Part shown: in pieces, positions 11,177 to 49,971 of the stretch
How the letters are laid out: each line of letters opens with the position of its first letter
Numbering within the stretch: the first letter of the stretch is position 1
NCBI RefSeq assembly: GCF_017349315.1
Contig: NZ_JAFMPP010000003.1
Location: 1-64,000 of the forward strand
Source: Jiella flava
GTDB taxonomy: Bacteria > Pseudomonadota > Alphaproteobacteria > Rhizobiales > Rhizobiaceae
DNA: 64,000 bases
Direction of reading: 5' to 3'
Program-made: the position numbers and the translations under genes
The notes under the pieces: model-generated
Told to the model about the DNA's origin: nothing
Database searches by the model: none
What the model saw: only the letters and a program-made list of their open reading frames with translations

Positions 11177-11593
11177 GTGGCGGGCGTGGCAGCGAAGGAC
11201 GAGGACGTGGACGCGGTGGGCGAAACGCCGGTCGGCGGCTCCGGCGCAAATGACGCGGCGGCCTGGGACGTTCGCCGCGACCAGCTGTCGCGCAAGCTCG
11301 CGGAACATCGCACCCGGCTCGATATCGAGGCGCGGGCCAGCCGCAAGGCGGGGAGCTCGCAGGGAATCGCCGAGGGGCTGAAGCTTGCCAGCGAATTTGC
11401 CGCAGGGATCATCGTCGGCGCGGCGATCGGCTATTTCATCGACCGCGCCGCCGGCACCACGCCTTTCGGTCTGATCTTTTTCCTGATGATCGGCTTCGCC
11501 GCCGGGGTGCGCAACATTCTGCGGGCGGTGTCGCCTGAAACCAAGCCGGTCGCCAAGCCGCCTCAGATCGGGCCGAATGACGGCAAAAGGTGA
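11177..11593 (+). CDS. atpI: ATP synthase protein I (F0 assembly factor)
   Basis: 138 residues from a GTG at 11177. The N-terminal half is hydrophilic (LSRKLAEHRTRLD). The C-terminal half has the AtpI pattern of two membrane helices, LASEFAAGIIVGAAIGYFID and FGLIFFLMIGFAAGVRNILR. AtpI assists c-ring assembly and is the usual first gene of the F0 operon in alphaproteobacteria. A second GTG four codons in is an alternative start. Confidence 0.9.
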   Translation: MAGVAAKDEDVDAVGETPVGGSGANDAAAWDVRRDQLSRKLAEHRTRLDIEARASRKAGSSQGIAEGLKLASEFAAGIIVGAAIGYFIDRAAGTTPFGLIFFLMIGFAAGVRNILRAVSPETKPVAKPPQIGPNDGKR

Positions 11594-11711
11594 CGGCAAT
11601 GGCCGCATGTGGTGTCAAACTCATGGAAGGGGTGTTGCTTCGCGCCTTCGGGAACGCTATGGGCAATCCGTCTCTTCTTGGGCGCAGTAATTCGACGAAG
11701 GACCAGGCCGT

Positions 11712-12470
11712 TTGGCATACGACCCGATAGATCCGATCCATCAGTTCCAGATCTTCCGTATTGTTCCGATCAAGATCGGAAGCTGGGATTTTTCCTTTAC
11801 GAACTCCGCCCTGTTCATGGTGCTGACCGTCGCGGTCACGGCCGGTTTTCTTTATTATACGACCCGTGGGCGGGGTCTCGTTCCGTCACGTGGGCAATCG
11901 ATCACCGAGCTCAGCTACGAGTTCACCGCCAACATGCTGCGTGACGCGGCCGGCACGGCGGGCATGAAGTTTTTCCCCTTCGTGTTCTCGATCTTCATGT
12001 TTGTTCTGGTGGCGAATCTGTTCGGCATGATGCCGTATTTCTTCACCGTGACCAGCCATCTGATCGTCACCTTCGCCCTGGCGATGCTGGTGATCAGCGT
12101 GGTCGTCGTCTACGGTCTGATGAAGCACGGGCTGCATTTCTTCCACCTCTTCGTGCCGCCCGGCGTCCCGGCGGCGCTGTTGCCGCTCGTCGTTTTGATC
12201 GAGGTGGTGTCGTTTCTGTCGCGCCCGGTTTCGCTGTCGGTTCGTCTGTTCGCCAACATGCTCGCCGGCCACATCACGCTGAAAGTCTTCGCAGGCTTTA
12301 TCGTCTCCTTGAGCGCACTCGGCACGCTCGGTATTCTCGGCTCGATCCTGCCGCTCGCCATGGTGGTGGCGCTGACGGCTCTGGAGTTCCTGGTCGCCGC
12401 TCTGCAGGCCTATGTGTTCGCGGTGCTGACCTGCATGTATCTCAACGACGCCATTCATCCGGGTCACTGA
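11712..12470 (+). CDS. atpB: ATP synthase F0 subunit a
   Basis: 252 residues from a TTG at 11712 ([14 protein letters not shown]), with GAAGGA upstream. Subunit a forms the proton half-channels next to the c-ring. The essential arginine helix is present as [20 protein letters not shown], and the final helix [20 protein letters not shown] is typical. It is the second gene of the F0 operon, 118 bases after atpI. Confidence 0.96.
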
Positions 12471-12563
12471 TCCCGTTCGGGAACAGTTTGCTCAGATCCA
12501 CCTCCGCATGGCGCTTTGCGCCTTTCAACCGCCGCTATCAGACACATTCAAAGGAGTTTCGAC

Positions 12564-12791
12564 ATGGAAGCGGATGCAGCTAAGTTCATCGGTGCCGGTA
12601 TCGCCTGCCTTGGTATGGGCGGCGCCGGAATCGGCCTCGGCACGATTTTTGGTCAGTACCTGGCGGGCGCTCTGCGCAACCCGTCGGCCGCCGATGGCCA
12701 GTTCGGCCGCCTGATCTTCGGCTTCGCAGTGACGGAAGCGCTCGGCATCTTCTCGCTGCTGATCGCCCTCCTGCTGCTCTTCGCCGTCTAA
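12564..12791 (+). CDS. atpE: ATP synthase F0 subunit c
   Basis: 75 residues, with AAGGAG upstream of the ATG at 12564. Two hydrophobic helices form a hairpin around the polar loop RNPSA. The proton-carrying carboxylate is Glu58 in the phrase [10 protein letters not shown]. The glycine-rich first helix ([14 protein letters not shown]) packs the c-ring. Longer readings upstream are not supported by the family. Confidence 0.97.
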
Positions 12792-12866
12792 GCGAAGACA
12801 TTTTCGCCTTAACCGTTGCGACCGGCGGCCGACCAGCCGCCGGTCATTCTTGCCGGAGACACCGCG

Positions 12867-13472
12867 ATGTTCGTCACGCAAGCCTTCGCCCAGGACGGTG
12901 AAGCGACGGGTTCCGCCCAGACCACCGCTCCAGGTGTGCCGGGCGCTGTTCATCAGGGCACTGTTGCCCATACGGAACACAAGGAGGGGTTTCCCCCCTT
13001 CAATCCCGAATATTTTCCGTCGCAGATCCTGTGGCTGGCGATCACCTTCGGCGTCTTCTACTGGCTTTTGAAAAACGTCATCATGCCGCGCATCGGCGGC
13101 ATTTTGGAGAATCGGCGTGATCGCATCGCGCTCGATCTCGAGGCGGCTGAGCGGATGCGCTCCGACGCCGACGAGGCCGAGGCGGCCTATGAACAGGAGC
13201 TGGCCGAGGCTCGCAACCGCGCCCATTCGATCGCCCATGAGGCGAAGGAATCGGCCCGCAGCGATGCCGAGAAGGAGCGCAAGCGTCTCGACGGCGAGCT
13301 CGACAAGAAGCTCGAAGAGGCCCAAGCCCGCATCGCCGGGGTGAAGGGTTCGGCTCTCGCCGAGGTCGATCAGATCGCCCGCGACGTGACCGACACGATC
13401 CTGCGCGAAGTCGCGAGCATCGAGGCGAGCCAGGATGAGATCGCCAATGCCGTCGCTCAGGCCGGCCGCTAA
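12867..13472 (+). CDS. ATP synthase F0 subunit b' (second b-type subunit)
   Basis: 201 residues from the ATG at 12867 (MFVTQAFAQDGE). After a polar N-terminus, one membrane helix follows (PSQILWLAITFGVFYWLLKN), then a long charged helical stalk (residues about 75-200) rich in Glu, Ala and Arg. The presence of both b' and b, as here, is the arrangement of photosynthetic bacteria and most alphaproteobacteria, where the two form a heterodimeric peripheral stalk. An in-frame start at 12816 is possible but has no ribosome site. Confidence 0.93.
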   Translation: MFVTQAFAQDGEATGSAQTTAPGVPGAVHQGTVAHTEHKEGFPPFNPEYFPSQILWLAITFGVFYWLLKNVIMPRIGGILENRRDRIALDLEAAERMRSDADEAEAAYEQELAEARNRAHSIAHEAKESARSDAEKERKRLDGELDKKLEEAQARIAGVKGSALAEVDQIARDVTDTILREVASIEASQDEIANAVAQAGR

Positions 13473-25182: not shown

Positions 25183-25943
25183 CATCCTTTACCTATGCTG
25201 CGATCTTAAGTACACTCGATGCCAACGGCGTGCGCACCATCGCCCTCAATCGCCCCGGCAGCCTCAATGCCATGAATCGGACGCTGATCGACGATGTCGC
25301 GCGGGCATTCGACGATGCCAACGGCTGTCCCGAGACCAAGATCATCGTCTTCACCGGCGAAGGCCGGGCCTTCTGCGCCGGCGACGACCGGCGTGAGCAT
25401 GTTCATCCGGAAACCGAGGCGCAAGCGCGCGACCTCGTCGAAGCCATTCAGGCCGCCACCCGTGCCATCACTTTCGGCGCCAAGCCGGTCGTCGGCGCGA
25501 TCAACGGCTGGGCCGTCGGCGGGGGTTTCGAATGGGCGATCAATTGCGATTTCTCGATCTGGGGCGAAAGCGCGCGCGCGTTCTTCCCGGAGATGAGCCT
25601 CGGCATCTTCGTCACCGGCGCGGTCACGTCGCTTCTGCCGGCGCTGGTCGGTCTCCAGAAAGCCCGCGAAATGCTCTATTTCGGTGAGCGATATTCGGCT
25701 CAAGCGCTTCTCGAGATGGGCCTTGCATGGCGCGTCGTGCCGGATGCCGAATTGCGCGACACGGCGCTGGAGGTCGCGGGCCGACTGGCCGCGTTGCCGC
25801 AGGATGCCATCCGCCGGATGAAACGCGCGCTCAACGCGTCCGCCGTCTGCGATATCGAACGGGCTTTACGAGAAGAAACCGACGCCACGATCGCCGGCTT
25901 TCTCGACCCCGAGACGTCGCGACGAATCCTGGCATTCCAATAG
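25179..25943 (+). CDS. Enoyl-CoA hydratase/isomerase family protein
   Basis: 254 residues, ATGA overlap with the ligase gene. Crotonase fold: ALNRPGSLNAMNRTLIDDVA, GEGRAFCAGDDRRE (oxyanion hole 1) and VGAINGWAVGGGFEWAINCD (oxyanion hole 2). The residue position that carries the second catalytic glutamate has PEMSLGIF. The exact reaction (hydratase, isomerase or thioesterase) is not predictable. It probably acts on the CoA ester made by the ligase before the carboxylation steps further down the operon. Confidence 0.85.
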   Translation: MTSFTYAAILSTLDANGVRTIALNRPGSLNAMNRTLIDDVARAFDDANGCPETKIIVFTGEGRAFCAGDDRREHVHPETEAQARDLVEAIQAATRAITFGAKPVVGAINGWAVGGGFEWAINCDFSIWGESARAFFPEMSLGIFVTGAVTSLLPALVGLQKAREMLYFGERYSAQALLEMGLAWRVVPDAELRDTALEVAGRLAALPQDAIRRMKRALNASAVCDIERALREETDATIAGFLDPETSRRILAFQ

Positions 25944-31256: not shown

Positions 31257-32864
31257 TTGCAGATCCTGGAAACGAAGATCAATGCGCGCTCCACGGAGTT
31301 TCAGGCGAATGCCGCAACGATGACGGCACTCGTTAGCGAGTTGCATGACAAGGCGGCCACGGTGATTGTCGGCGGCAATGAGACCTCCCGTGCCCGCCAC
31401 ACCGCACGCGGCAAACTCCTGCCACGCGACCGGATCGACCATCTGTTGGATCCCGGCTCGCCTTTTCTGGAGATCGGGCAGCTGGCAGCCAACGGCATGT
31501 ATGGCGGTGAAGCCCCCTGCGCCGGTGTCATTGCCGGCATCGGCTGTGTCGAAGGCCGCAAATGCGTCGTGGTCGCCAATGACGCGACGGTGAAGGGCGG
31601 CACCTACTATCCGATGACCGTGAAAAAGCACCTCCGCGCCCAGGAGATCGCCGAGCAGAACTATCTTCCCTGCATCTATCTGGTCGATTCCGGTGGCGGT
31701 TACCTGCCGCGTCAGGACGAGGTGTTCCCGGATCGCGATCATTTCGGGCGAATCTTTTACAATCAGGCCAAGATGTCGGCGAAGGGCATTCCGCAGATTG
31801 CCGTCGTCATGGGCTCATGCACCGCGGGCGGAGCTTACGTTCCGGCGATGAGCGACGAAACGATCATCGTCAGAAACCAGGGGACGATTTTCCTCGGAGG
31901 TCCGCCTTTGGTGAAGGCAGCGACGGGGGAAGTCGTGAGCGCCGAAGATCTCGGCGGCGGCGATGTTCATACACGGCTGTCCGGCGTTGCCGATCACCTG
32001 GCGGAGAACGACGAGCACGCCTTGGTTCTGACCCGGCGCATCGTGGCAAGTTTCCGACCACCGGCAAGCGGCGCCGAAGTGGCAATCTCCGTCGATGAAC
32101 CGCTCTATCCCACCGAAGATATCTACGGCGTGATTCCCGCCGAGACGCGCAAACCTTACGATGTCCGCGAAATCATTGCGCGCCTTGTCGACGGCTCGCG
32201 GTTCGACGAATTCAAGGCGCGTTATGGAACGACGCTGGTGACCGGGTTCGCGACGCTGTTTGGCAACCGGGTCGGCATCGTCGCCAATAACGGCATCCTG
32301 TTCGGCGAGTCGGCACAAAAGGGCGCGCATTTTATCGAACTGTGCGCCCAGCGGGAGATCCCGCTGATTTTCCTGCAGAACATCACCGGCTTCATGGTCG
32401 GTCGCCAGTATGAAAACGATGGGATCGCCAAGCATGGCGCGAAGATGGTGACCGCGGTCGCGACCGCGGCCGTGCCGAAGCTGACCATGGTGATCGGCGG
32501 CAGTTTCGGTGCGGGCAATTACGGCATGTGCGGTCGCGCCTACAGTCCCCGCTTCATGTGGATGTGGCCCAATGCCCGTATCAGCGTGATGGGCGGCGAG
32601 CAGGCAGCTTCGGTCCTGGCGCAGGTCCGGCGGGATAAGATTGAAGCCGAAGGCGGTGATTGGTCCGCCGAGGACGAAGAGTCGTTCAAGGCGCCGATCC
32701 GCGCTCAATACGAAGAACAGGGAAGCCCCTACTACGCCACCGCGCGTCTGTGGGACGACGGCGTGATCGACCCGGCGCAAAGCCGGCGGGTGCTCGGTCT
32801 GTCGCTCGCCGCCGCGCTCAACGCCCCGATCGAGCCGACCCGGTTCGGTCTTTTCCGGATGTGA
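31257..32864 (+). CDS. Acyl-CoA carboxylase carboxyltransferase (beta) subunit, methylcrotonyl-CoA carboxylase type
   Basis: 535 residues from a TTG at 31257, with GGGGAAGGAA upstream. Carboxyltransferase N and C domains are clear: [40 protein letters not shown] (typical of 3-methylcrotonyl-CoA carboxylase), [40 protein letters not shown] and [13 protein letters not shown]. It transfers carboxyl from biotin to the gamma carbon of a 3-methyl-2-enoyl-CoA. The order beta-hydratase-alpha-lyase equals liuBCDE. Geranoyl-CoA carboxylase is the close alternative; sequence by eye cannot exclude it. Confidence 0.88.
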
Positions 32865-32872
32865 GGTGTTCC

Positions 32873-33682
32873 ATGACCTCGTCGTCTATCGTTCTTGACC
32901 AAAAGCAGGCGGTGGCCTGGATCTGGATGAACCGGCCAGATCTGCACAACGCCTTCGACGAGACGCTGATTCGGGAACTGACCGAGGCGATCATCGCGCT
33001 CGAAACCGATCATACCGTCCGGGTCATCGTGCTTGCCGGCCATGGCAAGAGCTTTTCCGCCGGTGCCGACCTCAACTGGATGAAGCGGCAAGGGGCATCG
33101 TCCCAAGAGCAAAACATCGCCGATGCAAAGCATTTGGCGCGATTGTTTGCGGTGTTGTCGGATTGCACTAAGCCGACCGTAGCCCGGGTGCAGGGCGCGG
33201 CCATGGGCGGGGGAATGGGCCTGGCCGCGGCCTGCGACATTTGCCTGGCCTCGGATCGGGCGTTTTTTGCCACCTCCGAAGTTCGCCTCGGTCTCATCCC
33301 CAGTGTCATCGGCCCCTATGTCATCCGGGCGATCGGAGCACGGCAGGCTTTTCGCTACTTTCAGACGGGTGAACGCATACCGGCGAAGATTGCCCGCGAC
33401 ATCGGCCTCGTTCACGAGGTGGTGGAGGATGACGGATTGGACACGGCCGTTGCGGCGATAACGGATGCGCTGTTGAGCGGTGGCCCGCAGGCGCAAGCCG
33501 CGGCGAAGGCGCTGATCAGAGACGTCGAAAATCGTTCGCTGACGCCGCAACTGCATGACGACTGCGCCGTCCGGATCGCCGAATTGCGCGCCTCGCCCGA
33601 GGCGCGGGAGGGTTTGACGGCCTTTCTGGAGAAGCGGCGACCAGTCTGGATGGAAAGTACCTCATGTTCACCAAGCTCTTAA
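32873..33682 (+). CDS. Enoyl-CoA hydratase family, probable methylglutaconyl-CoA hydratase
   Basis: 269 residues from the ATG at 32873, 8 bases after the beta subunit. Crotonase fold: VLAGHGKSFSAGADLNWMKR is a strong signature of the LiuC/AtuE group, and VARVQGAAMGGGMGLAAACD and TSEVRLGLIPSVIGPYVI follow. By position it hydrates the 3-methylglutaconyl-CoA (or homologue) formed by the carboxylase. It overlaps the alpha subunit gene by 19 bases. Confidence 0.87.
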   Translation: MTSSSIVLDQKQAVAWIWMNRPDLHNAFDETLIRELTEAIIALETDHTVRVIVLAGHGKSFSAGADLNWMKRQGASSQEQNIADAKHLARLFAVLSDCTKPTVARVQGAAMGGGMGLAAACDICLASDRAFFATSEVRLGLIPSVIGPYVIRAIGARQAFRYFQTGERIPAKIARDIGLVHEVVEDDGLDTAVAAITDALLSGGPQAQAAAKALIRDVENRSLTPQLHDDCAVRIAELRASPEAREGLTAFLEKRRPVWMESTSCSPSS

Positions 33683-39648: not shown

Positions 39649-40166
39649 GGCCAAGACGGCCGATTTGCAACGGGATGCATCGCGTTCGTGTCGAGCCGGT
39701 GTAAGCCCGGACGATCAGCACGGCCCGAAAGCGCTTATCCCGCGACGCCATTCGCGCTGTCGGGCGACGATCCCGGGCATCGGCGATGTCACCGGCGATA
39801 CACGTCGGTCCGCGCGGATGGGTAGCATCGCACCCGCCGCGGCCGCGGCGCGGACGGGTCGGATCCAGCGGCACTCACAAAATCCTTTTCAACGCAGGCA
39901 TTCGCGCCTTTTCGACCGGCGACCGCGCGTTTTGGCACGGCGGTTGCCAAGCTGTTGCTGTCGCGACGGCGGGAGGCGCTGCGGCGTTACGCGGACCGGT
40001 TCATGCCACTTGGCATCCAACCGGCCGGCGGCGGGCGTCGGCGGACCATCCCGCATCAAAGGCCGGTCGTCAGCCCGCCGCCGCGTCGCGGGCCGCTCGT
40101 CCAGCGGCACCGCTCGACGAAGAAGTCTTAACGGGCCGGCGCGGCCCGCCGCGGAGGAAAACTGCC
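39649..40166. other. Gene-free region upstream of the TRAP operon
   Basis: About 520 GC-rich bases with no ORF that looks like a protein, no copy of the palindromic repeat and no tRNA-like fold that I could recognise. It should hold the promoter of the dctP-type gene. Confidence 0.5.
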
Positions 40167-41180
40167 ATGAAGACGCTGCTGCTCGGGACCGTCTCGCTGC
40201 TCGCATTCGCACTCACAACGACATTCGCCAAGGCCGATCCGAAGGGCTGCGACGACGGCGAAATCGTCATCAAGTTCAGCCATGTGGTCGCTGCGACCGG
40301 CCACCCGAAGGGCGACGCCGCGACACTGCTCGCCAAGCGCGTCAATGAGGAGATGGACGGCAAGGCCTGCATGCAGGTGTTTCCGAACTCGACCCTCTTC
40401 GACGACGACAAGGTGATGGAGGCCCTGCTGCTCGGCGACGTCCAGCTCGCCGCGCCGTCGCTGTCGAAATTCGAGGCCTATACGCTGAAATACCGCCTGT
40501 TCGATCTGCCCTTCCTGTTCGAGAGCCTCGACGCGGTGTCGCGTTTCACCCGGTCCGACGAGGGCAAGGGGCTTTTGAAGGTGATGGAAGGTGTCGGCTA
40601 CACCGGCCTTGGCTATTGGTCGTCGGGTCTGAAGCAGTTTTCGGCGAACAAGCCGCTTCTCCTGCCCGCCGACGCCAAGGGGCTGAAATTCCGCATCCAG
40701 ACCTCCGACGTCGCCGAGGCGATGATCGAGGCGATGGGTGGGTCGGCCCAGAAGCTCGCCTTCAAGGAGGTCTATGGCGCGCTGCAGACCGGCGTCGTCG
40801 ACGGCCAGGAGAACACCTGGTCGAACATCTATACGCAGAAGTTCTTCGAGGTACAGGACGGCGTCACGGAGACCAACCATCAGCTTCTCGCCTATCTGCT
40901 CGTCACCTCCACCGACTGGCTGAACGGCCTCGATCCTGAAGTCCGCGACCAGTTTCTGAAGATCGCCGACGAGGTGACCCAGGAAGCCAACGCCCGGGTG
41001 GCCGAGGTCGAGCAGAAGAATCGCCAGAACATCATCGATGCCGGCGGCAAGGTGCGCGAGCTGACCCCCGAGCAGCGTGAGAAGTGGGTCGAGACGATGA
41101 AGCCGGTCTGGGATCAGTTCAAGGGCGATATCGGCCAGGATCTGATCGACGCGGCGGTGGCCTCCAACAAGGCGAACTGA
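40167..41180 (+). CDS. TRAP transporter solute-binding protein, DctP family
   Basis: 337 residues from the ATG at 40167, with GGAGGAAA upstream. A signal peptide (about residues 1-24, TTTFAKADP) is followed by VIKFSHVVAATGHPKGDAAT, typical of DctP receptors for C4-dicarboxylates and sugar acids. MQVFPNSTLFDDDKVMEALL, LKFRIQTSDVAEAMIEAMGG (the arginine that anchors the carboxylate) and DGQENTWSNIYTQKF follow. The substrate is an organic acid that cannot be fixed by eye. Confidence 0.93.
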   Translation: MKTLLLGTVSLLAFALTTTFAKADPKGCDDGEIVIKFSHVVAATGHPKGDAATLLAKRVNEEMDGKACMQVFPNSTLFDDDKVMEALLLGDVQLAAPSLSKFEAYTLKYRLFDLPFLFESLDAVSRFTRSDEGKGLLKVMEGVGYTGLGYWSSGLKQFSANKPLLLPADAKGLKFRIQTSDVAEAMIEAMGGSAQKLAFKEVYGALQTGVVDGQENTWSNIYTQKFFEVQDGVTETNHQLLAYLLVTSTDWLNGLDPEVRDQFLKIADEVTQEANARVAEVEQKNRQNIIDAGGKVRELTPEQREKWVETMKPVWDQFKGDIGQDLIDAAVASNKAN

Positions 41181-41190
41181 CTGGCCGCTT

Positions 41191-41218
41191 CGGGGCGGCA
41201 AGCGTCATCGCCGCCCCG
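41191..41218 (+). other. Intercistronic hairpin after dctP
   Basis: CGGGGCGGC (41191-41199) and GCCGCCCCG (41210-41218) make a perfect 9-bp stem 11 bases past the dctP stop. It is followed at once by repeat copy E. Together they form a strong structured barrier between receptor and permease genes. Confidence 0.6.
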
Positions 41219-41226
41219 CAAACCTT

Positions 41227-41328
41227 GAGAGCGTCGTGCGTCCGACAAGCGCACACAGGACGCTCTCACTCATGGAAGCGACGCATCGGGCTTTGCCGGA
41301 CATCGATTCCGATGTTCGGGCCGATGCG
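41227..41328 (-). repeat. Two-module palindromic repeat, copy E
   Basis: Reverse orientation. Module 2 has outer arms GAGAGCGTC/GACGCTCTC and inner GTGCG/CGCAC, which differs from the common CTGCG/CGCAG by paired changes. Module 1 has ACATCG/CGATGT where most copies have AAATCG/CGATTT, again a paired change. It lies between dctP and dctQ inside the operon. Confidence 0.88.
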
Positions 41329-41387
41329 TCAACCGGCACGCCCTTTGGGCCGCGCCGGCATGCCGTTTTCCCCGTCCATGCCCGGTG

Positions 41388-42116
41388 ATGCCGTCGCTTG
41401 ATCGGACGGCCCGCGCCCCTCTGGAGATTTCGACCGTGCTCAGTCTCTGGCCGTATTTCGCGATCCTCGGCCTGATCGTGCTGCTCTTTCTCGTCGAGCG
41501 CCGCTTTCCGGACGCGGTCACCCGCATGGAAGAGAATATTCTGGCGCTTCTCCTCGCGGTGATCACGCTGGTCTCGTTCGTTCAGGTGATCGCCCGCTAC
41601 GGCTTCAACACCGGCTGGGGCGGGGCGCTGGAATTCAATCGCATCCTGTTTGCCTGGATGATCCTGTTCGGCATGAGCTACGGCTTGAAGACCGGCCTGC
41701 ATCTGGGCGTCGACGCGGCGATCCGCACCTTTCCCCGGCCATTGTTCAAGGCGTCGGCGATCTTCGGCGCCGTCGCGACGCTGCTTTACGCGGCAATTCT
41801 CCTCTCTTCCGACTGGCTGCAGATCTTCGGCGCCCACACCTCCGGCGGCGCGGTGTTCTATTGGGAGCGTTTCTTCAAGGTCGGGATCGGGCTCGACGAT
41901 CTGCGCTATCCGGTCTGGGTGCAGGAGGTCTTCGGCGTGCAGGAGCGGGTGCAGCGCTGGATCGCCTATCTGATGCTGCCGCTTGGTCTCGCGCTTCTCG
42001 GCTTTCGTGCCATCCAGGCGATGATCGAGATCGCGCTGGACAGACGCGAGGTGGTGATCGCCGGCCATGAGGCGGAGGACCTTGTTGCCGAGAACAAAGA
42101 CGTTCTGAAGGACTGA
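41388..42116 (+). CDS. TRAP transporter small permease, DctQ family
   Basis: 242 residues from the ATG at 41388 (a GTG at 41385 adds one). Four membrane segments are visible: FAILGLIVLLFLVERRF, ILALLLAVITLVSFVQVIAR, LFAWMILFGMSYGLKTGLHL and YLMLPLGLALLGFRAIQ. The family phrase RYGFNTGWGGALEFNRILFA is present. It is longer than the usual 160-200 residues because of the loop DWLQIFGAHTSGGAVFYWER and an extra N-terminal segment. Confidence 0.9.
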   Translation: MPSLDRTARAPLEISTVLSLWPYFAILGLIVLLFLVERRFPDAVTRMEENILALLLAVITLVSFVQVIARYGFNTGWGGALEFNRILFAWMILFGMSYGLKTGLHLGVDAAIRTFPRPLFKASAIFGAVATLLYAAILLSSDWLQIFGAHTSGGAVFYWERFFKVGIGLDDLRYPVWVQEVFGVQERVQRWIAYLMLPLGLALLGFRAIQAMIEIALDRREVVIAGHEAEDLVAENKDVLKD

Positions 42117-42123
42117 GCCGACC

Positions 42124-43749
42124 ATGGAAGCCCTCGTTCTCCTTCTCCTGGTCCTCGGCCTTTTGTTCCTCGGCGTGCCGGTGGCGATCTCGCTCGGCCT
42201 GTCGGCGGTGATCATGATCGCCTTCTTCTCGACCGACTCGATGTCGTCGGTGGCGATCCAGCTGTTCACCGCGGCGCAGAACTACACGCTGCTCGCCATT
42301 CCCTTCTTCGTGCTCGCCTCGGCCTTCATGTCGACCGGGGGTGTCGCCAAGCGGCTGATCGATTTCGCCATTGCCACCGTCGGGCATTTTCGCGGCGGTC
42401 TCGCCATGGCCTCGGTGCTCGCCTGCATGCTGTTCGCGGCGCTGTCGGGTTCCTCGCCGGCCACCGTCGTCGCCATCGGCACCATCGCCATCGCCGGCAT
42501 GCAGCGGGTCGGCTATTCCAAGGAGTTTTCCGCCGGTATCATCGCCAATGCCGGCACGCTCGGCATCCTGATCCCGCCCTCGATCGTCATGGTCGTCTAT
42601 TCGGCGGCGACCAACGTCTCGGTCGGGCGCATGTTCCTTGCCGGGGTCATTCCCGGTCTCGTCGCCGGGCTGATGCTGATGGCAGCGATCTATCTGGTCG
42701 CACGCTACAAGAACCTGCCGTCGGAGGACTGGCGCGGCGTCGTGCATCTCCTGCGCCACGGCAAGACGGCGAGCTTCGGCCTGTTCCTCATCGTCATCAT
42801 TCTCGGCGGCATCTATGGCGGCGTCTTCACCCCGACCGAAGCGGCGGCCGTGGCGGCGGTCTACGCCTTTCTCGTCGCGGTCTTCGTCTATCGCGACATG
42901 GGGCCGCTGAAGGGGCGGCCGTGGGTCGCCGAGACCGACAGCAGCCGGGCACGCATTGGTTTCAACGCCGTCGCCTACGGCATCTCCTTCTTCATCGTCG
43001 CTTTGATCCTGGTCTATTTCCTGACTGCGGGACCGGGCGGCGGCTCCAGCCTCTCGGTTGGTGAGCGCAGCGTTTTGTGCGGCGTTCCGGCATTGTTCGT
43101 CGCGATCGCCTATGGGCTGTGGCGCGGCGAGGGCGGCGTTGCAGCCCTGCCGGCGACTTTCATCGCTGGTCTGCCGATCTTTGCCCGCAATTTCGCCCTG
43201 ATCCTGCGTGCCTTCCTGCCCGCCTGTTTCCACGGCGAGACCCGCAAGGTGATGGTCGATGCGGCGAAGACGACGGTGATGCTGATGTTCATCATCGTCA
43301 ACGCGCTCTTGTTCGCCCATGTGCTCACGTCGGAGCGCATTCCCGACGCGATCACCGCCTTGATGCTCGACTACGGCTTCAACTGGTTCACCTTCCTGAT
43401 TGCCGTCAACGTGCTGCTATTGATCGGCGGTCAGTTCATGGAGCCGTCCGGCTTGTTGCTGATCGTCGCACCGGTGGTCTTTCCGATCGCGATGAAACTC
43501 GGCGTTGACCCGGTGCATCTCGGCATCGTCATGGTCGTCAATATGGAGATCGGCATGATCACCCCGCCGATCGGCCTCAACCTCTTCGTCACCTCCGGCA
43601 TCACCGGCATGAGCTTGGTCAAGGTGGTGAAGGCGGCGATGCCCTTCGTCGGCGTGTTGTTTCTGTTCCTGATCCTCGTCACCTACGTTCCCTGGCTCTC
43701 GACCGTGCTGCCCTACAGCCTGATGGGGCCGGAGACGGTGATGCGCTGA
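42124..43749 (+). CDS. TRAP transporter large permease, DctM family, with an internal insertion
   Basis: 541 residues. DctM features are LGVPVAISLGLSAVIMIAFF, LAIPFFVLASAFMSTGGVAK, ALSGSSPATVVAIGTIAI, and the C-terminal MEIGMITPPIGLNLFVTSGI. The family norm is about 425-440 residues. The excess is an insertion at roughly residues 258-370, with at least two extra hydrophobic segments (AYGISFFIVALILVYFLTAG and VLCGVPALFVAIAYGLW). It lies between the EAAAVAAVYAFLVAVFVYRD helix and VDAAKTTVMLMFIIVNALLF. Confidence 0.9.
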   Translation: MEALVLLLLVLGLLFLGVPVAISLGLSAVIMIAFFSTDSMSSVAIQLFTAAQNYTLLAIPFFVLASAFMSTGGVAKRLIDFAIATVGHFRGGLAMASVLACMLFAALSGSSPATVVAIGTIAIAGMQRVGYSKEFSAGIIANAGTLGILIPPSIVMVVYSAATNVSVGRMFLAGVIPGLVAGLMLMAAIYLVARYKNLPSEDWRGVVHLLRHGKTASFGLFLIVIILGGIYGGVFTPTEAAAVAAVYAFLVAVFVYRDMGPLKGRPWVAETDSSRARIGFNAVAYGISFFIVALILVYFLTAGPGGGSSLSVGERSVLCGVPALFVAIAYGLWRGEGGVAALPATFIAGLPIFARNFALILRAFLPACFHGETRKVMVDAAKTTVMLMFIIVNALLFAHVLTSERIPDAITALMLDYGFNWFTFLIAVNVLLLIGGQFMEPSGLLLIVAPVVFPIAMKLGVDPVHLGIVMVVNMEIGMITPPIGLNLFVTSGITGMSLVKVVKAAMPFVGVLFLFLILVTYVPWLSTVLPYSLMGPETVMR

Positions 43750-46804: not shown

Positions 46805-47722
46805 TTACCGGGCGTTTCGGCCCAGCAACCGGTCCTGCGCTTGGACGATGCGCCTCAGCTTGCTGCGCTCAGCCTCGCTCAGCCCCATCATGTGGTCGAC
46901 CCAGGCCGCCCCGGCCTCGGCGAGTTCGCGCGACAAATCCGGCCCCATTCGGTTAAACGCCGCCGCAATGGCGATCCGGGCGCGCCGACTGGACGCGGTC
47001 TTGTCGCAGAATTCGCGGATCCACTTGGCGCTGCCGCCATCGGTCACGAGGGCGTCGACGGCGCCTTTGTCATAGAATTCGGTGGCGTTGAAGGTCTTGC
47101 CGGAAATCAGAATGCGCTCCGCTTCGATCGGGCCGATCCGCCGGGTAAGAATCGGAGCGGCGGCGATCGGGAAGTGATTGTGGTTGACCTCCGGATAGCA
47201 GAACGTCGCCGACTGCTCGGCCACCATCACATGACAGGCGCGGGCGGGATCGATGCCGCCGCCGAGGGCGCGAGCATGCACGGCCGAGACCGTTGTGACG
47301 AGGCCGTTGAGGCCCGTGGCGTTGCCTTCGATCACCGCGCAGGCGGTCTCGGCATAGCGCTGCAGGCCGTCGCGGTCGTTGCGGGCGAGACAATCAAGAT
47401 AGAAATCGAGGTCGCCGCCGAGCGAGAAGGCCGGGCCCGAGCTGCGATAGGCCAGCACCGACACCGGCATGGCCGCTTCGGTCTCGGCCATCCGGCGCAA
47501 AGCACGTTGGACGCGCAGGACGCTGTCGACGAGAGCCAAGGTGAAGACCGGCTTCGGCTCCGGCCGCATGACGATCCACAACAGGCCGATCTGCGCTTCG
47601 AACAGCAGCTGGATCTGCGGCAAAGGGCCGGTCAGATCGAGGATGCGGTCGACAAACGCGCCGGCGTCCGGGACGGTCGCAGGCTGGGCTGCGACGGCAT
47701 TGGCGATCTGGACCTTGGACAT
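46805..47722 (-). CDS. RpfF-like crotonase (putative diffusible signal factor synthase)
   Basis: 305 residues from the ATG at 47722, with GTGGAG 9 bases upstream; a TTG at 47740 is less likely. It has the crotonase fold with features I associate with the DSF synthase RpfF: AFSLGGDLDFY (98-108, first oxyanion loop), ARALGGGIDPARACHVMVAE (150-169, second oxyanion loop), YPEVNHNHFP (176-185) and a long C-terminal helix with AWVDHMMGLSEAERSKLRRI then VQAQDRLL (273-300). In Xanthomonas RpfF two glutamates (141, 161) are catalytic. The second is kept (Glu178); the first appears as Asp158. It would make a 2-unsaturated fatty acid signal from acyl-ACP. It lies between two cyclic-di-GMP genes on the same strand. 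Ordinary enoyl-CoA hydratase is the alternative. Confidence 0.72.
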   Translation of the reverse strand: MSKVQIANAVAAQPATVPDAGAFVDRILDLTGPLPQIQLLFEAQIGLLWIVMRPEPKPVFTLALVDSVLRVQRALRRMAETEAAMPVSVLAYRSSGPAFSLGGDLDFYLDCLARNDRDGLQRYAETACAVIEGNATGLNGLVTTVSAVHARALGGGIDPARACHVMVAEQSATFCYPEVNHNHFPIAAAPILTRRIGPIEAERILISGKTFNATEFYDKGAVDALVTDGGSAKWIREFCDKTASSRRARIAIAAAFNRMGPDLSRELAEAGAAWVDHMMGLSEAERSKLRRIVQAQDRLLGRNAR

Positions 47723-47818
47723 AAAACGATCTCCACTCAACCGATGCTTAAAACTTAACCGGGCAACCAGATTCTGTAAATTTGGTTTCTAATAGAAGGT
47801 TAATATTACAAATTTTGG

Positions 47819-47831
47819 TAACGAATCGTTA
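47819..47831. promoter_or_regulatory. 13-base palindrome upstream of the RpfF-like gene
   Basis: TAACGA-A-TCGTTA is a perfect inverted repeat with one central base, in the AT-rich 254-base gap between the upstream phosphodiesterase gene and the RpfF-like start. A size and position fit for a dimeric regulator site. No regulator is assigned. Confidence 0.35.
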
Positions 47832-47976
47832 ACGACGTTTCTTTCCCGGTAAATGACGGAAACAGCGTGACAACGCTTGGCAAACGGCCGCCGCGTCAAC
47901 AAGGCTTCAAAGCGGTGACGGACCGTGCATGGTGTGAAAGCGCGATGCGTCCAAAAATGGCCGGAAGGCTTTGTGG

Positions 47977-49971
47977 TCAGGCGATCCGGCGCTCGGAACT
48001 GCCGATCTCGAGCGGGTCGCCGAATCGATCGGTCCCGCGGTGGCCGACCAGGAAATGCTCGGTTGTTTCGGATGCCGGGCGCGGTTTGCCGAAGAAATAG
48101 CCTTGCAGCTGATCACAGCCGAGGGAGGCCAGAAAGGTCGCCTGTTCTTCGGTCTCGACGCCCTCGGTCGTCACCTTCATCTTCATCTGATGGGCGAGGG
48201 TGATGATCGTCGCGACGATTTCTTTGACGTTCCGTTCACCGTTGTCCAGGGCGCGCATGAAGGATTGGTCGATCTTCAGCTTGTCGAACGGAAAACGCCA
48301 GAGATAGCCGAGGGAGGAATAGCCGGTGCCGAAATCGTCCATGTCGATGGAGATGCCGAGTTGCTTGAGGGTCGTCAGCTGATCGAGGATCATTTCGGAC
48401 CGTTCGAGCAGCAGCGATTCCACCACCTCGACCTCCAGCCGGTCGCCCGAGAGCCCGGCCGTCTTCAACGCATTGACAATGATTTCCACAAGGTCGCCAT
48501 CCTCGAATTGGACGGCACTGAGATTAACGGACACGAAGAGCGGCTCCGGCCATTCGGCAACTTGCCGGGTCGCCTCGCGAATCACCCAGCTGCCGATCGC
48601 CTTGATGTAGCCACGCGCCTCGGCGATCGGGATGAATTCGGTCGGGGAGATCAGATTGCCGGCCTCGTCTCGGAGCCGAATCAGGGCTTCAAAGCCGACC
48701 AGCGTGCCGTCGCGCCCCTTGACCAGCGGCTGGTAGAACAGTTCGAAGCCGTCGGCGTCCATCGCATGTTTGATGCGCGCCTCGATTTCGCGGCGGCGAT
48801 GCATCGCCTCGTCCATTTCCGCTTTGAAAAAGACGAGATCCTTGGCGCTGTCACCCTTGTGGTGAAAGTGGGCGATCTCGGCGTGCTTGACGAGTTCGGA
48901 ATGGCTGCGCCCATGGTGGGGCGCAATGGCGCAGCCGATCGAAATCTTGGGCGTCACGATCTGGCCGTCGATCTCGATCGCTTCAGAGACGGCCTCGTGC
49001 ATCGCGCGGGCAAGCGTGACGACCTCGCGGCGATCCTTGATCCGGCGCCGAATGATCGCAAAATCGTCGGGCCCGATACGGGCCGCGAGGTCGTCCGCTG
49101 CAAGACCGGCCGACAGTCGGCGCGCCACGATGCGCAGAACCTCGTCGCCGCGCGATTGGCCATAATGGTCATTGATCTCGGAAATATCGTCGAGATCGAC
49201 ATAAAGATAGGCGATTTCTTCCCGTGTCGCGCGGATCTTGAACAACAGCTGATCGCACAATTCCTGCATTCGGCGCCGATTGAGCAGGTGAGTCAGGTTG
49301 TCGTGGTCGGCGAGAAACTGGATTCGTGCGTCCGCCTCGTCGATCTTTCGCCGCCGCCGCTGATAGAGCATGAAGGGGACACAGGTGGCCACGATGACGA
49401 TGAGGATGATCAGCGCGTAAGTGCGGGCCAAAGTTTTCTCATAGTGATCGCGTTCCGCGATCATGTCGGAGACGATCGACAAATAGCCGATCGCCTTGCC
49501 GTTCCGGATCAGCGGCATGATTACCGATGGATTGGTCGCGCCGTCGTCATGGACGACCTGCCAGAAACCGGTCTTGGCGATGATGGAGGGCGAGAGCTTG
49601 TCGCCGGTGCTGACGCCCCCGGACTTGTCTCTCAGCAACCAGCCGTACCGCTCCGACTTGGACCGAAAGACCTCTTTGCCGTGCCGGTCAAAGATCGTGT
49701 AGCTGTCGATATTGGCGAGATCGGCGACTTTGCGGATGATGTCTTCGGAGCCGGGATTGCGGGCAATGCCGGTCAAGAATGCGTCGGCATAGCCTTCCGG
49801 GCCCAACAAGAGATTGGCGAAGTTCTGGCCGCGATTGTACATTTCCGATTTGACAAGCTTGCCGACGGCATTGTTTCCGACCGCGAAAATCGCCGCTGCC
49901 ACGAAGACGATGACCGCCATCGAGCCGAAGAAACTCTGCCAGTAATGTCGGTTGGCCAAAATTGCCGTCAT
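47977..49971 (-). CDS. Membrane EAL phosphodiesterase with degenerate GGDEF domain
   Basis: 664 residues from the ATG at 49971. Membrane helix 1 (FFGSMAVIVFVAAAIFAVGN), a periplasmic sensor region of about 150 residues (DIIRKVADLANIDSYTIFDR, then GKAIGYLSIVSD) and membrane helix 2 (YALIILIVIVATCVPFMLY). The GGDEF domain has GPDDF at 300-304, so the cyclase is probably inactive. The EAL domain (EAL at 428-430; VVESLLLE, MDDFGTGYSS, KIDQSF, TEGVETEEQ, LQGYFFGKP) keeps the expected catalytic phrases. It should degrade cyclic di-GMP in response to a periplasmic cue and is first in the row of three same-strand genes. Confidence 0.92.
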   Translation of the reverse strand: MTAILANRHYWQSFFGSMAVIVFVAAAIFAVGNNAVGKLVKSEMYNRGQNFANLLLGPEGYADAFLTGIARNPGSEDIIRKVADLANIDSYTIFDRHGKEVFRSKSERYGWLLRDKSGGVSTGDKLSPSIIAKTGFWQVVHDDGATNPSVIMPLIRNGKAIGYLSIVSDMIAERDHYEKTLARTYALIILIVIVATCVPFMLYQRRRRKIDEADARIQFLADHDNLTHLLNRRRMQELCDQLLFKIRATREEIAYLYVDLDDISEINDHYGQSRGDEVLRIVARRLSAGLAADDLAARIGPDDFAIIRRRIKDRREVVTLARAMHEAVSEAIEIDGQIVTPKISIGCAIAPHHGRSHSELVKHAEIAHFHHKGDSAKDLVFFKAEMDEAMHRRREIEARIKHAMDADGFELFYQPLVKGRDGTLVGFEALIRLRDEAGNLISPTEFIPIAEARGYIKAIGSWVIREATRQVAEWPEPLFVSVNLSAVQFEDGDLVEIIVNALKTAGLSGDRLEVEVVESLLLERSEMILDQLTTLKQLGISIDMDDFGTGYSSLGYLWRFPFDKLKIDQSFMRALDNGERNVKEIVATIITLAHQMKMKVTTEGVETEEQATFLASLGCDQLQGYFFGKPRPASETTEHFLVGHRGTDRFGDPLEIGSSERRIA

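Follow-up and report, generated by a model that had tools for sequence, protein, structure and literature searches.

Background

Crotonases of the RpfF superfamily are tied to the turnover of cyclic di-GMP (c-di-GMP) in well described arrangements. In Burkholderia and Cronobacter the crotonase gene is convergent with that of RpfR (PMC6361424), a PAS-GGDEF-EAL protein that a review presents as soluble (PMC4504480) and whose N-terminal FI domain is reported to bind and restrain RpfF, the PAS domain binding the Burkholderia diffusible signal factor (PMC6361424). The arrangement of xanthomonads is RpfF-RpfC-RpfG, where RpfG is described as a protein of a receiver and an HD-GYP domain (PMC4698668). 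RpfC-RpfG pairs have already been recorded from KEGG in alphaproteobacteria (PMC8895600), and an RpfB homologue has been reported in Bradyrhizobium (PMC10226988). Separately, the six-helix membrane domains of adenylyl cyclases have been reported as lipid receptors (PMC11606603, PMC12505454, PMC4821796). Here we analyse a locus of Jiella flava, contained in a window of 64,000 nucleotides (positions 1 to 64,000 of contig NZ_JAFMPP010000003.1, assembly GCF_017349315.1; this whole stretch is called the window throughout), in which a crotonase, P0001, lies between P0003, a GGDEF-EAL protein with a predicted membrane domain, and P0002, another EAL protein.

The fixed, rebuilt active site of this crotonase and its kept pairing with P0003 point to a form of fatty-acid signalling that has not been studied. 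Among the literature matches listed, we found no description of a membrane GGDEF-EAL protein encoded next to an rpfF-like gene, a weak negative given that most subscription journals lay outside that search.

Results

P0001 belongs to the RpfF superfamily

P0001 is a member of the RpfF superfamily and not an ordinary hydratase. Its top sequence matches in the Protein Data Bank (PDB) are the RpfF-family chains 7zq7, 6dgn, 5fus and 3m6m (E 1.1e-27 to 1.2e-23), with the next crotonase following at E 3.1e-12. The AlphaFold2 model of the protein (pLDDT, the predicted local distance difference test, 93.9) superposes on five RpfF-family entries with Z scores of 33.7-35.1, 261-271 residues being aligned at 1.8-2.5 Å, and the next structural match has a Z score of 28.8; the first twelve rows returned by Foldseek are those same five entries. 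The model closes with two C-terminal helices, residues 263-279 and 283-304. The likeness to RpfF and the long C-terminal helix, which had been proposed from the letters alone, are thus upheld by profile and by structure, with RpfF and not the hydratases as the best match.

Family models place P0001 at the edge of the group. It passes the curated cut-off of NF006452, the crotonase family around RpfF, with 189.6 bits against 177, and all 68 members of the alignment of P0001-like crotonases described below match the same model at 1e-10; two relatives with both catalytic glutamates reach 375.5 and 382 bits. The RpfF synthase equivalog NF053515 has a cut-off of 550 bits, below which fall both P0001 (114.4 bits) and the same two relatives (215.2 and 210.5 bits).

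The crotonase is paired with a P0003-type receptor

A profile scan of named genomes with the patterns PE[PL]KPVFT and LGGDLD[YF]Y yielded 58 loci with a crotonase of the P0001 kind, hereafter D-type. These patterns favour D-type sequences but include neither residue 158 nor any part of the neighbouring gene. Every one of the 58 crotonases has aspartate at position 158, and every one is adjoined on its own strand by a P0003-family gene, recognised by its membrane-domain profile, at a gap of at most 323 nt (two pairs overlap). The receptor gene lies downstream of the crotonase in 55 loci and upstream in three. The hosts are the Jiella group, Aureimonas, Enterovirga, Bosea (the largest share), unplaced Hyphomicrobiales and metagenome-assembled genomes labelled Methylobacteriaceae, Methylorubrum, Methylobacterium, Methylovirgula, Methylocystis and Beijerinckiaceae. 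When eight taxon groups were compared two by two, crotonase and receptor were both common to all 28 group pairs and any other flanking open reading frame (ORF) to five (12 representative loci of 59; blastp E ≤ 1e-25 and 35% identity; flanks of up to 8 kb, somewhat longer for the window).

Within its own genus the crotonase is present (E ≤ 1e-15) in eight of ten genomes, that of the window included, and is adjoined by a member of the P0003 family in all eight. It was found in none of 27 genomes from other genera of the family, and distant copies occur in two of 24 genomes from other families of the order. One relative, G007, keeps the receptor and P0002 and carries between them a remnant of 57 amino acids that is 58% identical to the C-terminal end of the crotonase (E 4e-10; L046, 7616-7786). 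We count this remnant, left in place in a relative that lost the crotonase, as evidence for the link between the two genes, which is well supported. The suggested tie to a membrane-embedded GGDEF/EAL protein is therefore borne out by a neighbourhood conserved in every named D-type locus.

The active site is remodelled

The active site was compared in 68 D-type rows (59 distinct loci, nine rows being taken for second copies because their contigs have the same lengths) and 52 rows of E-type crotonases, the relatives that keep both glutamates. Position 158 is aspartate in all D-type rows and glutamate in all E-type rows (GGGID, against GGGFE in RpfF), while E178 is glutamate in all 120. At position 183 the D-type rows have histidine without exception and the E-type rows leucine, methionine, serine or threonine. 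All 52 E-type rows have a glycine of the PGMG loop between P185 and I186, and all 68 D-type rows lack it. Y108, I157 and Y176 are fixed in D-type rows and are other residues in E-type ones; R161 is arginine in 65 of 68 D-type rows as against one of 52. Three Jiella pairs (NG86; pairs picked for closeness) gave dN/dS ratios of 0.14, 0.18 and 0.15 for the crotonase gene, which is under purifying selection. Because the changes are fixed in D-type rows and selection is purifying, the D-type active site is a fixed remodelling and not decay.

We take D158 and E178 to occupy the places of the RpfF catalytic pair. A review calls both conserved glutamates essential for production of the diffusible signal factor (DSF; PMC4504480). 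P0001 retains the second and has aspartate in place of the first. Since the first of the two needed glutamates is lost and the active-site loop is remodelled, the label 'DSF synthase' is doubtful for P0001 and should not be asserted; of the earlier description as an RpfF-like DSF synthase, the superfamily membership stands and the synthase role does not follow.

E-type crotonases and their partners in the wider order

In a sample of 397 genomes of the order, searched with a profile of ten sequences, a crotonase of the superfamily occurs in 55, and all 55 neighbourhoods were read, that of the window included. Fifty-two are E-type. A P0003-type receptor is adjacent in 18 (3 D-type and 15 E-type), counting L081 on its GGDEF-EAL match, the sensor part lying beyond the contig end. 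Gene order in E-type pairs is convergent in seven cases, receptor-first in five and crotonase-first in two. At 29 loci, here called type-2 (L045, L079, L085-L089, L091, L092, L094-L096, L098, L100, L102, L103, L105, L106, L108-L111, L113, L114, L116, L118, L120, L121, L123), an RpfC-like kinase adjoins the E-type crotonase and a GGDEF-EAL protein lies beyond it. In two further loci the kinase match lies at a distance of about 1.9 kb and a GGDEF-EAL protein is lacking, and six have neither receptor nor kinase close by; among the latter is L090 (G217), with the crotonase near a contig end and a receptor, a possible neighbour, at the end of a second contig.

Two type-2 kinases that were scanned contain HisKA, HATPase, receiver and Hpt domains (Hpt weak in one), and neither reached the cut-off of any NCBIfam kinase model. 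The label 'RpfC-like' is our assumption from this domain order and an N-terminal motif. The two type-2 regulators scanned carry receiver, PAS, GGDEF and EAL domains, and therefore, in the two tested, a REC-PAS-GGDEF-EAL protein (REC, receiver) stands in the place of RpfG. At L109 the GGDEF-EAL gene is broken into two ORFs (11260-13406).

A sample of the class gave a crotonase in 24 of 385 genomes; among the 25 loci, read with flanks of 1.5 kb, a kinase match adjoins in 17, neither partner in seven, and the membrane receptor at the window's own locus only. Five crotonase matches of this sample contain one stop codon each (L245, L249, L250, L259, L260).

On a crotonase tree of 62 rows (the 55 plus seven from the genus), the D-type sequences form a clade with support 100/100 that consists solely of receptor-paired loci, and the labels 'membrane receptor' and 'kinase' require two changes over the whole tree. 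The D-type branch has a length of 2.75, with L130 joining there, and because of this long branch the placement of D-type relative to E-type crotonases is unsure.

As the sequence-only reading had it, no RpfC is present at the locus: no ORF of the window between 34 and 60 kb matches the RpfC-like kinase profile (RpfG and HD-GYP proteins were not searched for). Searched with a type-2 kinase, the J. flava genome returns ten kinases at 1e-20. In eight the match starts at residue 179 or later and so covers the kinase core, and the top-ranking protein, of 521 amino acids, has HisKA and HATPase domains and no receiver or Hpt.

P0003 combines a predicted membrane bundle with intact GGDEF and EAL signatures

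The six-helix membrane part of P0003, noted earlier from the sequence, is backed by an AlphaFold2 model of residues 31-360 (pLDDT 85.1), in which a six-helix bundle leads through a long helix into a PAS domain. The candidate membrane-spanning helices are, in model numbering, 16-37, 40-65, 73-104, 108-128, 133-153 and the start of 157-214. Pfam adds to the parts listed before a PAS_7 domain, which 41 of the 42 members of the P0003 family also match at E ≤ 0.1. No Pfam membrane family scores above cut-off in P0003, and weak, scattered matches appear in one to three of the 42 members.

P0003 has the signatures of a bifunctional GGDEF-EAL protein, all intact and in invariant columns: GGDEF (G439-F443), RxxD (R430/D433) and EAL (E566-L568). 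Regular expressions applied to 82 receptor rows (nine of them second copies) found a GGDEF-type motif in 82, the RxxD spacing in 68, an EAL-type motif in 81 (one doubtful) and DDFG[TA]G in 76.

The membrane model resembles the six-helix cyclase entries 8wcn_B (Z 12.5, 3.3 Å, 184 residues aligned, 8% identity) and 7pd4 (Z 12.4, 3.4 Å, 179 aligned, 6% identity), at a level (Z below about 13) that helical bundles can reach by themselves. VIA-align rows for the P0003 model are mostly PAS-domain matches; RpfR domains are not among these rows, which excludes nothing. Homology of the membrane domain with that of the RpfC-like kinases was considered and rejected (hhalign probability 0.6%, E 0.097), the two profiles having been built in this study from 25 and 30 sequences, with no Xanthomonas RpfC among those compared.

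The domain occurs once in the J. flava genome at E ≤ 0.01. Its top 19 places in the order sample (at least 186 bits, the next having 157) are 17 crotonase-adjacent receptors, the receptor of G007 beside its remnant and that of G217, a possible neighbour of its crotonase; this score gap is partly built in, because the profile was made from crotonase-linked members. On a receptor tree of 56 rows, crotonase linkage needs four changes, compared with 17.1 in shuffles, so that the crotonase-linked receptors are clustered.

Layout of the locus

The three genes proposed from the sequence are intact ORFs on one strand (Table 1). In the window, P0001 and P0002 are separated by 237 nt, and P0001 and P0003 by 482 nt, the longest such gap among D-type loci. 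Two further crotonase-like stretches of the window (25338-25793 and 32792-33505) are 23% and 27% identical to P0001. Three plus-strand ORFs (39786-43749) adjoin P0003, and at least two of the three also stand beside the P0003-type gene in L038 and L039. Presumably they encode a TRAP transporter, with a binding protein and two membrane subunits.

Table 1 Features of the crotonase-receptor locus in window coordinates
Feature	Position	Strand	Description
Crotonase P0001	46805..47722	minus	305 aa, intact ORF; ECH_1 = PF00378 (Pfam); D-type RpfF-superfamily member
Partner P0003	43954..46323	minus	789 aa, GTG start, intact ORF; six-helix membrane domain (predicted) + PAS_7 + GGDEF + EAL
EAL protein P0002	47977..49971	minus	664 aa, intact ORF; GGDEF + EAL (Pfam); judged outside the module
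Six-helix membrane domain of P0003	45610..46218	minus	residues about 36-238; AlphaFold2 model
PAS_7 of P0003	45265..45600	minus	residues 242-353; Pfam 36.3 bits against cut-off 27
GGDEF + EAL of P0003	44020..45243	minus	residues 361-515 + 536-768; signatures intact
D158 codon of P0001	47249..47251	minus	aligns with E of GGGFE in RpfF chains (first catalytic Glu)
E178 codon of P0001	47189..47191	minus	retained second catalytic Glu; aligns with PE of RpfF
H183 codon of P0001	47174..47176	minus	Gly of PGMG loop missing just past P185

Discussion

A proposed two-gene module and what weighs on it

We consider it rather probable, and by no means assured, that P0001 and P0003 make up a two-gene c-di-GMP module of their own, in which an acyl-handling crotonase with a changed site acts as the partner of P0003. 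The crotonase is an RpfF descendant whose dehydratase/thioesterase site has been altered by the exchange of glutamate for aspartate, a shortened loop and new conserved tyrosine, arginine and histidine residues. Most likely it still binds a fatty-acyl thioester or a fatty acid, and it may serve P0003 by sensing or by processing acyl groups. P0003 would take its input from the crotonase by contact, or from a released lipophilic ligand that reaches the six-helix bundle or the PAS domain, and could then switch its output from diguanylate cyclase to phosphodiesterase activity or back. The membrane protein would, on this mechanism, read a fatty acid.

Several observations weigh against this module. 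The membrane-domain family is wider than the pairing: it is found in 117 of the 397 order genomes at 1e-8, and none of the 19 lower-scoring receptor loci that were inspected has a crotonase (profile E ≤ 1e-15) in the 9-12 kb around it. The idea that the receptor domain is specific to crotonases was rejected on both counts, and since those 19 loci have no crotonase nearby the membrane domain is not dependent on one. In G007 the receptor persists without the crotonase and therefore counts against strict dependence. Conserved proximity can stem from shared regulation instead of contact, and co-transcription of the pair in the window itself is not certain because of the 482-nt gap. Other residues might substitute for the lost loop, so the D-type proteins may still be enzymatically active. 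We infer the acyl ligand, the changed chemistry, the coupling, be it physical or ligand-mediated, and the direction of the c-di-GMP effect.

Alternative explanations

How much catalysis is left in the D-type crotonase separates two further explanations. It could be a working DSF-type synthase that uses aspartate for glutamate and releases a cis-2 or related fatty acid, with P0003 as the membrane receptor. The fold is the same, the second glutamate is kept and the score lies just over the NF006452 cut-off; moreover, E-type relatives with both glutamates adjoin the same type of receptor, and lipid reception by six-helix membrane domains is on record for adenylyl cyclases (PMC11606603, PMC12505454). 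We nevertheless regard this as unlikely, for of the two glutamates called essential (PMC4504480) the first is replaced in every D-type row, where the loop glycine is lost as well, and P0001 reaches about half the NF006452 score of the E-type proteins. Its 114 bits for the RpfF equivalog point the same way, though the E-type members fail that model too. At the other end, the crotonase may be a pseudo-enzyme, an allosteric subunit that binds P0003 and an acyl group much as RpfF behaves towards RpfC or towards the FI domain of RpfR. This is one form of the two-gene module and its likelihood is contained in what we grant to that reading; taken by itself it seems plausible but short of an even chance. 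First glutamate and loop glycine are lost throughout while selection stays purifying, and precedents exist in the dead RpfF of Xylella that signals (PMC4504480) and in the binding of RpfF by the RpfR FI domain (PMC6361424). Yet D158, E178 and H183 are invariant in D-type proteins, a pattern better suited to a retained or novel active site than to an inactive one, and no FI domain was detected in P0003 (PAS_7 was not probed as an FI-like interface).

Two other explanations concern the neighbourhood. That an ordinary metabolic crotonase stands beside c-di-GMP genes by chance could appeal to its PF00378 membership and to the two other crotonase-like stretches of the window, but RpfF entries clearly outscore hydratases and the pair persists in all 58 named D-type loci, most of the remaining flanking genes being variable; we hold chance to be very improbable. 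Still less credible is a unit of three genes with the EAL protein P0002 as receptor or output. P0002, whose GGDEF motif is degenerate (GPDDF) and whose EAL signature is intact, is the next gene in the window and, in seven of the eight genus genomes that have the crotonase, is no more than 1.6 kb away from it. Against this, it falls within the fetched flank in only six of the 58 named D-type loci, and these six are among the seven that make up the Jiella group. It is on another contig in G004, and it is present in G005, which has neither crotonase nor P0003 at the thresholds used. In five relatives 1.3-1.5 kb separate the P0002-type gene from the crotonase, compared with the short gap of the window. 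An SMP-30/gluconolactonase-like ORF fills this space in L042 (8421-9338), the sole one tested, and the other four have a similar gap. Because P0002 adjoins the crotonase in the Jiella group only, the three-gene row proposed by the sequence-only reading was rejected and the unit is two genes; P0002 we take to be a bystander. The remainder of that interpretation, namely the RpfF superfamily, the link to a membrane GGDEF/EAL protein and the missing RpfC-like kinase, survives.

Implications

Returning to the two-gene module, we tentatively advance, at somewhat less than even confidence, that it is a third layout of the DSF family beside RpfCG and RpfR. A protein descended from RpfF, its active site newly built around fixed Asp, Glu and His residues, would act through a six-helix membrane PAS-GGDEF-EAL receptor, the two genes having spread together through the Hyphomicrobiales, and would either make a different acyl product or make none and serve as an acyl-sensing subunit. 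If this is true, acyl metabolism is linked to c-di-GMP by a third route in dozens of species. The D-type proteins would then offer naturally occurring cases in which signalling by RpfF may have become separate from its catalysis, and roles of RpfF beyond signal synthesis become testable in environmental strains, for example of Jiella and Bosea.

Comparison with known systems

We read the locus as similar to RpfF/RpfR, with the receptor placed in the membrane and the chemistry of the crotonase changed. With RpfF-RpfR it shares an RpfF-superfamily crotonase gene adjoining the gene of a PAS-GGDEF-EAL protein, here P0003, as in all 58 named D-type loci, and presumably a link of one protein from acyl signal to c-di-GMP. 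It differs in that a six-helix membrane domain precedes PAS_7, the N-terminus of P0003 modelling as this bundle where RpfR is soluble and begins with an FI domain; in that the D-type pair is codirectional; and in that the first catalytic glutamate is gone. With RpfF-RpfC-RpfG of the xanthomonads it has in common that an RpfF-superfamily crotonase is connected to c-di-GMP turnover and to a receptor in the membrane, but no RpfC-like kinase is found at the locus (34-60 kb) and the membrane domain is without profile similarity to the RpfC-like one. The type-2 loci of the same order employ the same crotonase superfamily and second messenger through a two-component relay, not a one-protein membrane receptor, and keep both catalytic glutamates. 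Six-helix membrane cyclases (ImcA, adenylyl cyclase 9) show a bundle arrangement similar to that of the P0003 model, at a Z of about 12.5, a value that unrelated bundles can also reach. Closest to the changed active site is the Xylella RpfF in which both glutamates were replaced and which is reported still to support signalling (PMC4504480); that catalytically dead protein was made in the laboratory, whereas the D-type change is natural and fixed.

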